Shown: one piece after another, positions 5,606-38,749 of the stretch
Layout of the letters: the number at the start of each line of letters is the position of its first letter
Numbering within the stretch: position 1 is the first letter of the stretch
From: a virus
Strand: one strand, 5' to 3'
IMG/VR virus record: IMGVR_UViG_3300028610_000712
Span: 1-48,110 of that record
DNA length: 48,110 nt
Position numbers and translations under genes: made by a program
The notes under the pieces: model-generated
The model's input: only the letters and a program-made list of their open reading frames with translations
Told to the model about the DNA's origin: nothing
Databases searched by the model: none

Positions 5606-6598
5606 ATGACTTATTTAGAAGTATTAACCGATATTTGCAGCCAGGTCGCGGATCCGGGACTAGACACATATAAGGAACGTGCAAAAGACCACTTTTTACG
5701 TTCTATTGCTAAACAGATTAGCGAGGGGAATTACAATGAAAACGACATACCCGGATTTATTAAGACTAAGGCGAATATGAAGTTTGCAGGCGGTTCGGAA
5801 GATATTAATTCATTGAAAGTGTTTGAAATATTGGATTTGTATTTACCGCCCGGCACCGACAAGAAGGTTATCATAAACTTTCAAGAAACGTCTGAACTCA
5901 ATAAGATATCATCAATAGAAACCTTACAACCAACGATAAATGATTTATTTATATATCGCGAAGGGAATATATTAAAAGCATATACTAAAGATGAAATCAC
6001 GTTAGCAGGGGAAAGTTTGGATGAAGTTGATTTTGCTACTCATGCAGAGTGGGCTGTTACTAACGATCTTGACGACACCGGAGGGAATGCTGCTTTTACT
6101 TGGTCAGCCAATCAAACCTCAACATTAACGCAGTTACAGGCGAGCCTAGTTATCGCCGGCGTTGCAGACAAATTTTATAAGTTTACATACACCATAGCAG
6201 AAACTACCGCTTTTGATGGTGACGGTGCCGCAATAATTACAACAGCTTTTGCTTTAACGGCCGTTGATTTAGACCTAACTCCCGGCACTCACACAGTTTA
6301 TTTTAAATCTGCCGCAGCGCCTACTGATTTTGTGATCAGCATTGTTTCCGGAACCGACACAGAGGGAACTTTTACGATTGACGATGTATCCTTAAAAGAA
6401 ATTACAGCAGGCGATTATCCATTATTTGTATTAGGTACTGACATTCTAACGATGAAGTACATAGAGGACATTGATGATAACGCTTGGACGGACGCTACGG
6501 ACTTACAAGCAGCAGCTAATTTTCAATTATCATACACTTTTACGCGCGAATCTATAAGGATGGCAGCTAAAACATTAAGAGACGAGGTGCAATTATGA
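5606..6598 (+). CDS. Tail adaptor-like virion protein with inserted beta-domain
   Basis: A 330-aa protein. Residues 1-130 and 271-330 look like two parts of one small helical/beta connector-type protein (MTYLEVLTDI start, FIYREGNILKAYTKD before the insert, YPLFVLGTDILTMKYIED after it). Residues about 132-270 are a beta-sandwich-like domain homologous to residues 50-189 of the protein at 1434. The domain therefore appears inserted in a loop. The position just before the nozzle-like genes supports a head-to-tail adaptor or tail-accessory role, as in P22-type tails. The stop overlaps the next start by four bases (ATGA). The adaptor role is inference from order and texture. Confidence 0.6.
   Translation: MTYLEVLTDICSQVADPGLDTYKERAKDHFLRSIAKQISEGNYNENDIPGFIKTKANMKFAGGSEDINSLKVFEILDLYLPPGTDKKVIINFQETSELNKISSIETLQPTINDLFIYREGNILKAYTKDEITLAGESLDEVDFATHAEWAVTNDLDDTGGNAAFTWSANQTSTLTQLQASLVIAGVADKFYKFTYTIAETTAFDGDGAAIITTAFALTAVDLDLTPGTHTVYFKSAAAPTDFVISIVSGTDTEGTFTIDDVSLKEITAGDYPLFVLGTDILTMKYIEDIDDNAWTDATDLQAAANFQLSYTFTRESIRMAAKTLRDEVQL
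6002..6415 (+). repeat. Coding repeat: shared beta-domain, copy 2
   Basis: This is the second copy of the domain encoded at 1581-2000 (ESLDEVDF ... TTAFDGDGA ... TDFVISIVSG ... KEITAGD). It interrupts an adaptor-like protein between residues about 132 and 270. The flanking residues on either side would join smoothly if it were removed, which suggests insertion and not terminal fusion. Confidence 0.8.
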
Positions 6599-23473: not shown

Positions 23474-24085
23474 ATGATAATATACAAGGCAACAAATCGA
23501 GAGAATGGTAAAATTTACATTGGACAAACTATTGGTACTTTAAAATATAGAAAAACACAACATTTGTGGGATGCCAAAGGTGGGTCGAATTATCATTTTC
23601 ACAATGCTCTGCTTAAATATGGTGTTGATGGTTTCAAATGGGAAGTTATTCAAATATGTGCGGATATTGATAGTTTGAACGAGAGAGAGCAGTATTATAT
23701 TGCCTATTATGATTCTTTTAATAATGGATATAATTCACAATCAGGTGGTCTTAATTATAGAGCGTCTGAAGAAACAAAAGAGAAAATGAAAGAGGCTACA
23801 GGCGGTAAAAACAATCCAAGATATGGGGTTGAGGTTTCTAAAGAAACTAGAGGAAGAATGCGAAAAGCCCATTTAAATATGTCCGATGAAGCTAAAAGAA
23901 AAAGGGGCGAAGCAATAAGAAAAAGGCAGATGGGCAAAGACAATCATAACTACGGTAAACACCCTTCTGAAAAAACTAAAGAAAAACTTAGACAGGCTTC
24001 TTTGAAACGTTGGCTTGGTAAAAAACAAAATTGCAGGCAGTGTGAGTTAAAACTTTACCGGGCGGGAATATCTCGGGGAATTTAA
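23474..24085 (+). CDS. GIY-YIG homing endonuclease (free-standing)
   Basis: A 203-aa protein. IIYKATNRENGKIYIGQT (2-19) carries the GIY-YIG core, followed by the catalytic region with LNEREQYYIAYYDSFNNGYN. The second half has NUMOD3-like repeats (GKNNPRYG, GKDNHNYGKHPSEKTKEK) that bind DNA. CCGG is nearly absent, unlike the flanking genes, which suggests recent arrival. It lies inside the recombination operon and splits no visible gene. A related but distinct GIY-YIG gene lies on the other strand at 26846-27670. Confidence 0.9.
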   Translation: MIIYKATNRENGKIYIGQTIGTLKYRKTQHLWDAKGGSNYHFHNALLKYGVDGFKWEVIQICADIDSLNEREQYYIAYYDSFNNGYNSQSGGLNYRASEETKEKMKEATGGKNNPRYGVEVSKETRGRMRKAHLNMSDEAKRKRGEAIRKRQMGKDNHNYGKHPSEKTKEKLRQASLKRWLGKKQNCRQCELKLYRAGISRGI

Positions 24086-25005: not shown

Positions 25006-25535
25006 TAAGACCATTTCCAGATAAACAATATAACATTATTTACGCTGATCCTGCGTGGAGTTATAAAAATAAGAATACCGGTGGTAGTATGAGCAGCGGA
25101 TCTTCGGCAAAATATGACACTATGCCAACTAAAGATATATGCGATTTGCCAGTAAATGAAATATCTGCAAAAGATAGTGTCTTGTTTTTGTGGGGAACGG
25201 TTCCTTTGCTGCCTGATGCTTTTAAAGTTATGTTAGCGTGGGGATTTCAATATAAAACAATGATAACATGGCGAAAAATTATGTCGTTAGGCATGGGATA
25301 TTGGTTTCGTGGACAATGTGAGCATTTATTATTCGGCGTAAAGGGAAAAGTAAAAGCATTTCGATTGCAAGAATCAAACTTTATTCAATGCAAAGCACTA
25401 AGGCATAGCGAAAAACCGCAAGAGTTTAGAGAATTAATTGAAAGAGCAACCGCCAACATGCCTCAACAAGAGAGGATAGAACTTTTTGCAAGACAAAAAC
25501 CTGACAACTGGGACGTATGGGGCAATGAGGTTTAA
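25002..25535 (+). CDS. MT-A70-type adenine-N6 DNA methyltransferase
   Basis: A 177-aa protein. ADPAWSYKN (15-23) is the DPPW catalytic motif in a DPAW form, and FLWGTVPLLPDAF and ALRHSEKPQEFRELIE are the other conserved blocks of the MT-A70 family (S-adenosylmethionine-dependent). It probably modifies phage DNA against host restriction, since no cognate nuclease is adjacent. It is the last gene of the rightward operon, and its TAA overlaps the stop of the convergent recombinase gene in the self-complementary TTTAAA. No terminator lies between them. Confidence 0.88.
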   Translation: MIRPFPDKQYNIIYADPAWSYKNKNTGGSMSSGSSAKYDTMPTKDICDLPVNEISAKDSVLFLWGTVPLLPDAFKVMLAWGFQYKTMITWRKIMSLGMGYWFRGQCEHLLFGVKGKVKAFRLQESNFIQCKALRHSEKPQEFRELIERATANMPQQERIELFARQKPDNWDVWGNEV

Positions 25536-26119
25536 AAGCTAATAATTTCTTTAGCTGCATCCATCATTTTTTGAGTTCGTCCGATATACCGTAACGTCAC
25601 TGCCGGACTTGAATGATTTAGCATAGCCTGTACCAACGATCCGTCTTTGCCTGTTGCTTCGTAGACATGCAAGGCGTGAGTTTTGCGCATCGATTGAGTG
25701 TTGAAATTTTCAATACCACACTCTTTTGCAGCTCTGCAAAGGATTTTGCTGCTCCAATCTCTAGTAATTGGAACATTCACATCTTTATTATTTCTTATAC
25801 GATAAAATAAATAATGATCAGGTTTATTGCCGATATACCGAGTGATATATGCTCTCAAGACCGGTGCTAATGTTGATGTTATTATGATCCGGTTGTATTT
25901 GCCGGTTTTTTGTTCTCGAATATCGATGTATTTCTTAATTTTATAATTAGTACCAGGATACATGACATGACGCACGGTAAGTCTTAGCAAGTCGCCGATT
26001 CTAAGAATTGTATTTACACCGGTTTGGAACAATAGAGCATCGCGCGGATTTTTACCACGAAGATACCGGAGCATTTCTTTAACTTTTTCTCTATCCTCGA
26101 TCGGTAATGTCGTGGCCAT
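25532..26119 (-). CDS. Minimal tyrosine recombinase
   Basis: A 195-aa protein consisting of the catalytic domain only. R40 (TILRIGDLL), K71 (EQKTGKY), R145 (SMRKTH), H169 (MLNHSS) and Y178 (LRYIG) are present. The usual box II His before the second Arg is Gln142. The N-terminal core-binding domain of classical integrases is missing. Such short recombinases occur in phages and plasmids as integrases or resolvases. It is the last gene of the leftward operon, overlapping the upstream gene by 29 bases. No att site could be identified. A role in integration or in resolving concatemers is possible. Confidence 0.85.
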   Translation of the reverse strand: MATTLPIEDREKVKEMLRYLRGKNPRDALLFQTGVNTILRIGDLLRLTVRHVMYPGTNYKIKKYIDIREQKTGKYNRIIITSTLAPVLRAYITRYIGNKPDHYLFYRIRNNKDVNVPITRDWSSKILCRAAKECGIENFNTQSMRKTHALHVYEATGKDGSLVQAMLNHSSPAVTLRYIGRTQKMMDAAKEIISF

Positions 26120-26849
26120 CCTCTAATTTCCCCTGTTCTTTTTTATATTTTTTCACCGGTGCTTTTGTTTCTACCGGGAACATAACCGTTACGCCGTGCT
26201 TACTTCCGGTACCTTCTTGAACTGATTTTATCTGATCTTCCTCCGTGATTACTCCGCTTTGGTCGGCTAGAAATTTAGCTTGGAATAGCGCTCCCTGTGC
26301 GATTTTCTGCATAGCAATAACACCTTGCGGCGTTTCCGCCAATTTATCTCTTTGTTTTTTGGTTATTTTCAAGCCATCGGCATAAAACTCGGCAATTTCA
26401 AGTTGTTTTAATATCATACGTTGAGCCGCAGCAGATCCGAGCGAAATTTTTTCACGCATGATAAGGTTTCGATTCGCCCACCACTGGCGCAAAGTGCTTT
26501 TCGATACTCCGAGCCACCTGGCCACTCCCGCGTAGTATGGCGTTGCGCTCATTCCGACACCGAGATCGGCCATCATTCCAACAGAGGCAGACATAAGCGA
26601 AATCGCCGTTATTTTAGCATATACTTTATATGTATGATTTTCGTTTTTTTCAAATAATTCGGTAGTGCCGAGTTTTTCAACTAATTCTTTGGCTTTCATC
26701 AATATAGGAATATTTTCATCCTTCTCTATCGTGAGTATTTCTTCTTCCGGTACGTCTAAGCGCCGTAACATTTCCCGGACTTCCTCTTGGTATTCCAATT
26801 TACTAAGTGCTAAAGTATCTTCCCTTAACTTATTTTTTGTACTGGTCAT
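26091..26849 (-). CDS. Helix-turn-helix protein, candidate small terminase
   Basis: A 252-aa protein. Residues about 106-127 (YAGVARWLGVSKSTLRQWWA) form a clear helix-turn-helix. Helical segments flank it on both sides, and the C-terminus is Lys-rich (KAPVKKYKKEQGK). The arrangement resembles some small terminase subunits, which recognise the packaging site, and no other candidate small terminase is present. But it lies on the opposite strand, about 13 kb from terL, beside a recombinase. An alternative is a recombinase-associated DNA-binding protein. The start overlaps the stop of the GIY-YIG gene (ATGA). Confidence 0.5.
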   Translation of the reverse strand: MTSTKNKLREDTLALSKLEYQEEVREMLRRLDVPEEEILTIEKDENIPILMKAKELVEKLGTTELFEKNENHTYKVYAKITAISLMSASVGMMADLGVGMSATPYYAGVARWLGVSKSTLRQWWANRNLIMREKISLGSAAAQRMILKQLEIAEFYADGLKITKKQRDKLAETPQGVIAMQKIAQGALFQAKFLADQSGVITEEDQIKSVQEGTGSKHGVTVMFPVETKAPVKKYKKEQGKLEDGHDITDRG

Positions 26850-27670
26850 TTCTTATCCTTTTTTCTATTTTTTGCCGCGATACTTGTTTTTTCTCTCTGT
26901 TCGGGATCGCTATATCTTTTCTTTTGTGCGATACTCATATTTTTTCTTGCTTTATCTGATGCGCGTTTACCAAACATTGGATGATTTTTACCCGCTTTGG
27001 CGATACTCATATTTTTTTTTGCTTGTATGGTTGCCTTTGTTCCTGTTTTCGACTTTATAATCTTATTAATGGTTTCAATAGATGGATGCTTGCCATAATT
27101 CGCATTATTAACTCCACTATTAGCAATACCTATTTTCTTTTTGTGTTCTTCTGAAAGTGGTATGCCTCTATGTGCATCGCCTATTTTACGTTTCGTTGTG
27201 TCGGTGTGATGAAAACCTCTTTTACCTGTGTGAGAGTCAATCCTTTTTTGGCGCGTTTCCGGTGTATCTACTCTACCGGTAGCAGATTTGCGCGCCGCCT
27301 CCTTTATTTTATTTTTAATGTGTTCCGGTAAATTAAGATGAGATTCTTTTGATTTTTCTTTGCTTTCCTCTGCAAGCGAAAAATACAGCCCTCCGCTTTG
27401 ACAATTATATCCATATTTTCTGTTCATAGAATTATATTTTTTTATGTAAAATTCTCTATACATAAAAGATTCGGACCTTTTATTACAATATTCTAATATA
27501 AACCAACTAAAATTATTTGATCCATATCTGTTAATCGCATCATATAAAAACCCGCTTGTATCTCTCGTTGCTTCGCTTATTTGTAGTTTTTTGCGCACTT
27601 GTAATGAATATATTGTATGTCCAATAAATACCTTTCCATTAATTCGGTTTGTTATTTTATATACTATCAT
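26846..27670 (-). CDS. GIY-YIG homing endonuclease with NUMOD repeats
   Basis: A 274-aa protein. The ATG at 27670 follows AAAGGAAAT; a start at 27700 would have no ribosome site. IVYKITNRINGKVFIGHT (2-19) is the GIY-YIG core, and FMYREFYIKKYNS supplies the catalytic acidic region. From about residue 100 a series of NUMOD3-like repeats (SGVNNANYGKHPS, AGKNHPMFGKRAS) forms a long DNA-binding tail. The gene sits in the leftward operon with its stop overlapping the next start, preceded by a strong hairpin (27689-27742). It differs clearly in sequence from the GIY-YIG protein at 23474. Confidence 0.9.
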   Translation of the reverse strand: MIVYKITNRINGKVFIGHTIYSLQVRKKLQISEATRDTSGFLYDAINRYGSNNFSWFILEYCNKRSESFMYREFYIKKYNSMNRKYGYNCQSGGLYFSLAEESKEKSKESHLNLPEHIKNKIKEAARKSATGRVDTPETRQKRIDSHTGKRGFHHTDTTKRKIGDAHRGIPLSEEHKKKIGIANSGVNNANYGKHPSIETINKIIKSKTGTKATIQAKKNMSIAKAGKNHPMFGKRASDKARKNMSIAQKKRYSDPEQREKTSIAAKNRKKDKK

Positions 27671-27688
27671 ATTATTTCCTTTTAATTC

Positions 27689-27758
27689 CGTGAGTAGCAC
27701 CGGAAGGATGGCTCATTACACCAGGAACCGGTACTACCCACGTTTGACCGTTACGGTC
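27689..27758 (-). promoter_or_regulatory. Intergenic RNA hairpins in the leftward transcript
   Basis: CGTGAGTAGCACCGG (27689-27703) and CCGGTACTACCCACG (27728-27742) form a 15-bp helix in the leftward RNA, with two G-U pairs and a 24-base loop. In the opposite transcript the same two positions would be A-C mismatches, so the structure fits only the leftward strand. A second hairpin, GACCG-TTA-CGGTC (27746-27758), spans the stop codon of the upstream gene. There is no T-run. They may act as processing or stability elements, or as a translational control of the endonuclease. Confidence 0.65.
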
Positions 27759-37624: not shown

Positions 37625-37828
37625 ATGCAGAAAGACATGAGAAGTAGAGCTGTAATCAAGATGTTTGGCATTTCAAAGCAAACATTATATAACTGGCGCA
37701 AAGCCGGACTGCCATTTTCCGGAAGCGGACAGATGTTTCTTTACGACGAGGCAAAGGTTAGATACTGGCTAGATCATAGAGATAACGACAAAGCAAAGGA
37801 AGTAATCGAATCTAATTATGAAGTTTAA
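37625..37828 (+). CDS. Small HTH protein (MerR/excisionase-like)
   Basis: A 67-aa protein. RAVIKMFGISKQTLYNWRKA (8-27) is a helix-turn-helix followed by a short wing (GLPFSGSGQMFLYDEAKVRY) as in MerR-type, excisionase and Nu1-like DNA-binding domains. It starts two bases after the methyltransferase stop and lies directly before the structured RNA at 37853. It could be a regulator of replication genes, a directionality factor for the recombinase, or a small-terminase-like packaging factor. Confidence 0.7.
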   Translation: MQKDMRSRAVIKMFGISKQTLYNWRKAGLPFSGSGQMFLYDEAKVRYWLDHRDNDKAKEVIESNYEV

Positions 37829-37852
37829 TTGATTTATAGTAGATTGGTTGTA

Positions 37853-37955
37853 TGCAAACAGTATATAAATTAATAACTACCCCATTGGATGCCGATTATT
37901 CGGTGGCTATCTCCCCTGCGGAGAACTGTTTGCAATCTGGTGGGGTAACTTTTTT
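37853..37955 (+). ncRNA. Structured leader RNA with interleaved helices and terminator-like end
   Basis: Four hairpin or helix elements pack without gaps. TGCAAACAGT (37853-37862) pairs with ACTGTTTGCA (37925-37934). TACCCCATTGGAT (37878-37890) pairs with ATCTGGTGGGGTA (37935-37947), 13 bp with three G-U. Between them lie hairpins GCCGA/TCGGT (37891-37904) and TCTCC/GGAGA (37910-37924). Six T follow at 37950-37955. The two long helices are interleaved, so they form a pseudoknot or are alternatives, one of them terminator-like. The element lies 11 bases before the replisome-organizer ATG, with the ribosome site GAGGT after it. I match it to no known riboswitch. Confidence 0.7.
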
Positions 37956-37966
37956 GAGGTCACATA

Positions 37967-38749
37967 ATGGCTCTCCGTAACCAACCTTACATACCGCTTT
38001 ATGTTCAAGACTATTTAACCGACGAAAAATTAAATTTGTGCAGTCTTGAATCTCAAGGTGTTTTTATAAAAATAATGTGCATTTTACACAAATCTACCGA
38101 GTATGGAACTGTTTTGCTTAAGCAAAAAGACAAGCAAAACCAAAGCACTTGCTTGAATTTTGCTTGCAAGTTTGCTAGACTTTTGCCTATCCAAGTTGAT
38201 GTTTTAAAGGTCGCAATAACCGAATTAGTTGATGAAGGAGTGTTGGAAATTGAAGGCGATAAGCTATTTCAAAAGCGCATGGTTCACGACAATAAAATAA
38301 GTTTAATAAGATCAAAAGTTGGTAAGAAAGGTGGTAAAAAAACACAGTCTTTTTTGCTAAAGCAAAAGTTAAAGCAAAACACTGAAGATGAAGATGAAGA
38401 TGTAATTGAATATAATAATGTTATTAAAAACATTGTGTCTGAATTTTACGAATTTCAATCAGTTAAACATAAAAACCAATTAAACGAATGGGATAAGGAC
38501 GAAAAGCTATTAAATGATTCCTATGCTGTAATTGATAAACTTCAAAGATTAGACGGATTTAGTTATGAAGATATCATGCTAGTACTTAGGAACGCCACTA
38601 AAGATGATTTTTGGAGTAATCAGATTATTAGTTTACGGGGATTGAGGAACAGAGGCAAAAACGGACAGATGAAATTTCAAAACGCTGCGGTTAAATTACT
38701 AAAAAAAGACGCCTTTGATGAATGGGAGGAAAAATATGGAAAGAACTAA
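37967..38749 (+). CDS. Replisome organizer / replication initiator (DnaD-like)
   Basis: A 260-aa protein with GAGGT upstream. Residues about 8-110 form a winged-helix domain (YIPLYVQDYLTDEKLNLCSL; ITELVDEGVLEIEGDKLF) seen at the N-terminus of phage replisome organizers. A Lys-rich linker follows (KVGKKGGKKTQS), and then a helical C-terminal domain ending in a basic segment. It would bind the origin and recruit the helicase loader encoded next. No phage helicase or polymerase is present, so the host replisome is presumably used. Expression may be gated by the upstream RNA structure. Confidence 0.75.
   Translation: MALRNQPYIPLYVQDYLTDEKLNLCSLESQGVFIKIMCILHKSTEYGTVLLKQKDKQNQSTCLNFACKFARLLPIQVDVLKVAITELVDEGVLEIEGDKLFQKRMVHDNKISLIRSKVGKKGGKKTQSFLLKQKLKQNTEDEDEDVIEYNNVIKNIVSEFYEFQSVKHKNQLNEWDKDEKLLNDSYAVIDKLQRLDGFSYEDIMLVLRNATKDDFWSNQIISLRGLRNRGKNGQMKFQNAAVKLLKKDAFDEWEEKYGKN

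Follow-up and report, generated by a model that had tools for sequence, protein, structure and literature searches.

In the window analysed here, the whole 48,110-base record of a virus that carries a P22-like portal, 138 bases separate the gene of a 67-aa HTH protein (37625–37828) from a replisome-organizer-like gene of 260 aa (37967–38749), and the locus raises the question of what the interleaved helices packed into this gap do for the replication genes behind them. The organizer gene, which lies on the plus strand together with all parts of the element described below, has a weak DnaD-like helicase-loader match, and its N-terminus is conserved in about 100 loci. A sequence-only reading had placed the structure between an HTH regulator and the organizer; the position holds, but the identity of the regulator is doubtful, as profiles of terminase small subunits and of Nu1 match the 67-aa protein. 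Since a similar HTH gene directly precedes the large terminase gene in a relative (L014), the 67-aa protein may belong to the terminase, as its Nu1-like small subunit, and not be a regulator. Elsewhere in the window are a homing-endonuclease-like gene of the GIY-YIG type (23474–24085) and, on the minus strand, a gene for a homing-endonuclease-like NUMOD3 protein (26846–27700), near an integrase-like gene at 25532–26119.

Architecture of the element in the window

Two helices, hereafter P1 and P2, are interleaved in the gap. The 5' arm of P1 (P1a, 37853–37862, TGCAAACAGT) and its 3' arm (P1b, 37925–37934, ACTGTTTGCA) form 10/10 Watson–Crick pairs, and the arms of P2 (P2a, 37878–37890, TACCCCATTGGAT; P2b, 37935–37947, ATCTGGTGGGGTA) form 13 pairs, including three G-U. 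The interior is filled by two hairpins, GCCGA TTAT TCGGT (37891–37904) and TCTCC CCTGC GGAGA (37910–37924). P1b lies inside the P2 loop, adjoining the second hairpin on one side and P2b on the other, and a run of six T (37950–37955) follows two bases (AC) past the P2 stem; immediately 3' of this run is GAGG (37956–37959), Shine–Dalgarno-like for the organizer. The arms, pair counts, interleaving and both hairpins given in the sequence-only reading were thus all recovered. It had also called P2 terminator-like, in agreement with the 13-bp stem, calculated at −17.6 kcal/mol as a duplex, and the T6 two bases later, which together present the stable stem and U-run of an intrinsic terminator.

Such packing had been judged hard to obtain by chance, and this was borne out with a detector that scores interleaved helices followed by a T-run and permits no bulges. 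The window element scored 50.5, a value reached by none of 20,000 dinucleotide shuffles of the intergenic region (37829–37966); the best shuffle scored 46.5, and 16 of the 20,000 reached 40. Only two perfect 10-bp inverted repeats with loops of up to 90 nt are present in the 48 kb window, one of them being P1, and the pseudoknot-free MFE z-score of the element is −2.5. That the architecture is real is near certain.

What the earlier reading, which saw the structure, overlooked is a leader ORF of 42 codons (37852–37980, MQTVYKLITTPLDADYSVAISPAENCLQSGGVTFLRSHNGSP) running through it, with P1a on the leader start. The ORF begins one base before P1a, so that this arm covers the UG of the AUG and the next codons and P1b becomes an anti-start segment; it then crosses P2a, both hairpins, P1b, P2b and the T-run, and its stop codon ends at 37980, giving a 14-nt overlap with the start of the organizer gene. 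It has no Shine–Dalgarno sequence, whereas the adjacent genes have one. In computed folds, the nascent RNA ending at P1b (37934) folds into P1 and both hairpins, and P2 dominates once P2b is added, which suggests that P1 closes first and blocks the leader start. A 10-bp P1 and a 13-bp P2 in a single pseudoknot would need threading of the 3' end, and the two may form in turn.

Upstream of P1a, a weak promoter-like sequence (37835–37847) consists of a −10-like TATAGT (37835–37840) overlapping TAGATTGG, which fits five of the six fixed positions of the Bacteroidota −7 box consensus TAnnTTTG (PMC7366714). Background frequencies are 1.7% for a perfect box and 21% for five of six positions; perfect boxes occur in other elements, and the window has a weak one only. 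Judged from these letters, transcription from this site would start just before P1a.

Recurrence of the pairing in related loci

The element is invisible to similarity. A DNA search against phage and plasmid collections gave no match, and the P1-arm pattern found four stretches in IMG/VR, all attributable to chance. Rfam gave no gathering-level match for the window; around the element, even a threshold of E ≤ 10 brought up no related family, and a scan of 18 element-carrying loci returned a tRNA only. The earlier reading, which had recognised no known class, agrees with this outcome. No useful relatives came from IMG/VR when the whole organizer, the helicase-loader-like gene or the terminase served as a single-protein query, nor from genomes when the terminase did. 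Relatives were reached via the 59-residue organizer N-terminus, which gave 29 viral loci, and an alignment of these gave further viral loci and 28 genome loci, mostly in Clostridia and Bacteroidota bins. Two draws of about 395 genomes, from the phylum and the order of a Paludibacter bin (G002), contained 1 and 2 matches to the organizer alignment. A terminase alignment led to L013–L015 (53%), of which L013 and L015 have a different organizer type and a conserved small ORF in place of the element. This ORF (..KRTRSGRYITIAEGDTRKELIEKIKSDS..) fills the gap that separates the HTH gene from the organizer (892–1074 in L013, about 790–955 in L015), overlaps the organizer start and is unrelated to the window leader.

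Over 101 non-redundant loci, 19 had an element scoring at least 40 upstream of the organizer, against 1.07 expected from shuffles (17 without two near-duplicate pairs, L132/L136 and L147/L150), and 12 scored at least 44, against 0.18 expected. Real sequence elsewhere in the same loci served as a second control: ORF-bearing elements with a score of at least 44 occurred at 0.236 per kb near the organizer versus 0.0006 per kb elsewhere on the plus strand and 0.0024 per kb on the minus strand. At a score of at least 40, a leader ORF was found in 13 of 20 near elements and in 11 of 183 elsewhere. In 8 of 20 elements, the 30 nt preceding P1a contain promoter-like boxes, several of them perfect Bacteroidota TAnnTTTG, compared with 6.5% of background positions; in this survey, as in L110, L148 and L167, the detector sometimes selects a poorer P1. 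The element is absent from about 80% of the loci that share this organizer N-terminus. Where another gene comes before the organizer, the element stands in front of that gene, which by eye is often GIY-YIG-like.

Several detector matches were set aside as likely false, namely L187, L190 (at an SSB-like gene), L111, L143, L152/L153, L188, L198 and L200. In the first detector version, tandem TTGCAGTGG-like repeats at 6504–6625 of L148 gave a top score, which is a repetition artefact. Further structures were noted outside the organizer position. One phage (L129) carries a second element of the same kind at 1343–1421, before a helicase-like gene whose start is overlapped by the ORF MRVVVLHIENIYTPSVALVPTPQGTGHQRHFILWSIRNF, and L101 has one at 2412–2526, which lies before a different gene, 1.5 kb upstream of the organizer, and has a 39-codon leader and a TATATTTG box. 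Several long intergenic inverted repeats of another kind, with arms of up to 20 nt, lie between small genes at 6266–7547 of L099.

The layout recurs in the upstream regions of the relatives with unrelated sequences. P1 is formed by TGTAATCATAAA/TTTATGATTACA in L117 (P2 by TTGCCCGTGCAG/CTGCACGGGCAA), by CCGACAGACA/TGTCTGTCGG in L108 and, with one G-U pair each, by GCTTGTAAATCAGA/TCTGGTTTACAAGC in L113 and GGCTAGATACAC/GTGTGTCTAGCC in L167. As the arms differ completely between elements, it is pairing, not sequence, that is kept. Compensatory change in homologous phages, which the sequence-only reading had named as its own test, is thus present in an extreme form, with wholly different arms that still pair. 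For a non-circular test of P1, 15 loci were picked on P2/terminator and ORF only, and the pairing of each locus's own leader-start region with its own 32 nt before P2b was scored. The own pairings summed to 310, compared with a maximum of 267 in 20,000 permutations among loci; three of the 15 loci (L111, L143 and L187) look like false positives, which weakens rather than helps the test.

The position of P1a ranges from 34 nt upstream of the leader ATG to 10 nt inside the ORF, often ending 1–6 nt upstream, and in most elements it overlaps the ATG or closely precedes it. L132, L146 and L147 have P1a 20–34 nt upstream, so start blocking is not universal. L148 and L110 can be aligned to each other, with 75% column identity. 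Both retain ATCAGGTGGAG-nnnnn-CACTCC, and the five loop bases differ in step with the leader start (TGTGCAA/TTGCACA versus TGACTA/TAGTCA, as read from the sequences); a formal covariation score would need more than two sequences. A search with the scaffold pattern CAGGTGGAGNNNNNCACTCC returned these two loci themselves and chance matches only.

An ORF through the terminator, as in leaders of the pyrBI type, is found in most other elements as well as at 37852–37980. These ORFs stay open for about 20–44 codons, and their peptides are dissimilar to one another; pairing is nevertheless kept. Some elements (L159, L133, L142, L164 and L170) have no ORF through P2, or a short one only, so the ORF may not be essential. 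The cultured Flavobacterium phages hattifnatt9-1 and snusmum have a pseudoknotted terminator before a helicase gene (P1 GCTTCGAC/GTCGAAGC, P2 GCCTATTTGTA/TACAGATAGGC, then a T-run) with a TAnnTTTG-like box upstream (TATATTTG in snusmum) and no leader ATG. A relative of the snusmum helicase, 80% identical, is without the element, which indicates that the element comes and goes. In both phages the annotated helicase start (9791 in MN812234, snusmum; 9441 in MN812207, hattifnatt) lies just before the 3' arm of the terminator, and an ATG 36 bases later is the likelier start. Because elements such as these have no leader ORF, the shared core, as read from sequence, is a pseudoknotted terminator behind a promoter, with the leader ORF frequent and not universal.

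Candidate mechanism and alternative readings

The sequence-only reading had proposed a cis-regulatory RNA, and in this general form the proposal is supported. More specifically, we consider it probable, with modest confidence, that the replication operon has this element as its 5' leader and is attenuated by it at the level of transcription, with the pseudoknot assisting termination, a pyrBI-like leader ORF and the ribosome as the switch. Attenuation of the replication operon appears likely on the sequence evidence, and ribosome occupancy of the leader is moderately likely to be the signal; the window promoter, termination in vivo and the cause of changed ribosome occupancy are parts of the scheme that we infer. 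RNA synthesis would start at the promoter just upstream of the element. P1b, made just before P2b, would pair with P1a on the leader start, and P1 would thereby block leader initiation and bring P2b beside P2a, after which P2 and the T-run would stop transcription before the organizer. If a ribosome had already started on the leader, P1 could not form; translating P2a, P1b and P2b close behind RNA polymerase, the ribosome would cause the terminator to fail, with the caveat that bacteria vary in the tightness of ribosome–polymerase coupling. The leader stop overlapping the organizer start would then couple both translations.

Alternatively, the element could be an independent phage small RNA, with a promoter and a terminator of its own and an action in trans, for instance on the same leader in other copies of the phage, read-through into the organizer being incidental. 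The promoter-like boxes before P1a and the terminator after P2 do delimit a unit of about 105–130 nt, and P4 CI RNA and Gifsy-1 IsrK provide phage precedents (PMC4825925). However, P1a and P1b are on one molecule and would pair in cis, an RNA of this kind does not need an ORF that crosses the structure and overlaps the next start, and ACTGTTTGCA with up to two mismatches is about as frequent in the window as expected by chance, with no second target site found there. We regard a role in trans as unlikely. That P2 is an ordinary terminator between two transcription units, which P1 merely stabilises without any regulation, is distinctly unlikely. P2 and its T-run would make a good terminator alone, and elements without a leader ORF exist, but the promoter-like boxes lie upstream of the element rather than in the stretch that separates it from the organizer, and the operon would be silenced if the terminator were a plain one. 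Moreover, the permutation test shows that P1 specifically pairs with the leader-start region, and the reading frame stays open across the terminator.

A riboswitch or a protein-binding autoregulatory operator RNA, both suggested from the sequence earlier, would fit a compact pseudoknot with inner hairpins before a terminator, and an autoregulatory pseudoknot of a phage replication gene is known from T4 gene 32. Against this, the elements conserve no sequence in their loops, junctions or stems, a search among them for a conserved aptamer core found no shared sequence apart from L110/L148, and no Rfam relation exists; the suggestion is unsupported and, in our view, very unlikely. A DNA-level site (operator, origin or packaging) of the adjacent Nu1-like protein is highly improbable: the upstream gene matches terminase small subunit/Nu1 profiles and P1 is a perfect inverted repeat, but the half-site is neither common to the phages nor enriched in the window, and the strand-specific order, the T-run and the ORF indicate RNA. 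The absence of shared half-sites led us to reject P1 as a DNA operator. It is scarcely credible that the 42-codon ORF is a real small gene with the helices as a by-product of its sequence, because, despite the open ORFs in most elements, the peptides are dissimilar while pairing is kept, and both the shuffle and the permutation tests show selection on pairing.

The attenuator reading describes a leader architecture not described before, in which a start-sequestering pseudoknot, an intrinsic terminator and a read-through leader ORF are combined, and which is repeatedly found before phage replication genes, with a similar pseudoknotted terminator in cultured Flavobacterium phages. Complete turnover of its sequence hides it from similarity searches and from Rfam, and such phage attenuators may therefore be widespread and missed. 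It also offers a testable model of how phages without a known antiterminator gate replication. As a speculation that we hold to be improbable, one could hypothesise an immunity or copy-number device, in which the terminated leader RNA accumulates and its P1b anti-start loop pairs in trans with the leaders of other copies, so that co-resident or superinfecting phages would have their replication operon shut. As pairing alone is conserved, the arms could diverge freely and set self against non-self, which would explain the complete sequence turnover between phages.

Comparison with known systems

Pairing over the start of a leader ORF is a likeness to the C4 RNA of P1/P7, which pairs over a leader ORF start region and in this way governs the genes that follow; C4 is an antisense RNA made separately from the leader, and termination there is Rho-dependent. 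The element also recalls the leader control exerted by P4 CI RNA (seqA-seqC immunity), which shuts off replication genes through premature termination (PMC4825925). The CI RNA is a processed antisense RNA acting in trans, whereas in the window the pairing seen joins arms of a single RNA and the terminator consists of an intrinsic hairpin with a T-run. In Gifsy-1, IsrK exists in two forms, a terminated sRNA and a read-through mRNA whose 45-codon ORF is coupled to the following gene (PMC4825925). The IsrK-orf45-anrP arrangement resembles the scheme proposed for the window in its single promoter, in a terminator that gives rise to a short transcript, and in a longer read-through mRNA whose short ORF is translationally coupled to the next gene; it differs in that its ORF lies downstream of the sRNA, which activates in trans, whereas the window ORF runs through the terminator.

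In the pyrBI system, as in the window, a leader ORF spans an intrinsic terminator before the first gene. The pyrL leader has 44 codons, with its stop just before pyrB. The pyrBI signal is UTP-dependent pausing, and we know of no leader-start-blocking helix and no pseudoknot in that leader. In E. coli, the advancing ribosome suppresses the pyrL intrinsic terminator (PMC5021804). By this comparison, the element would work most like a pyrBI attenuator to which an extra start-sequestering helix has been added.
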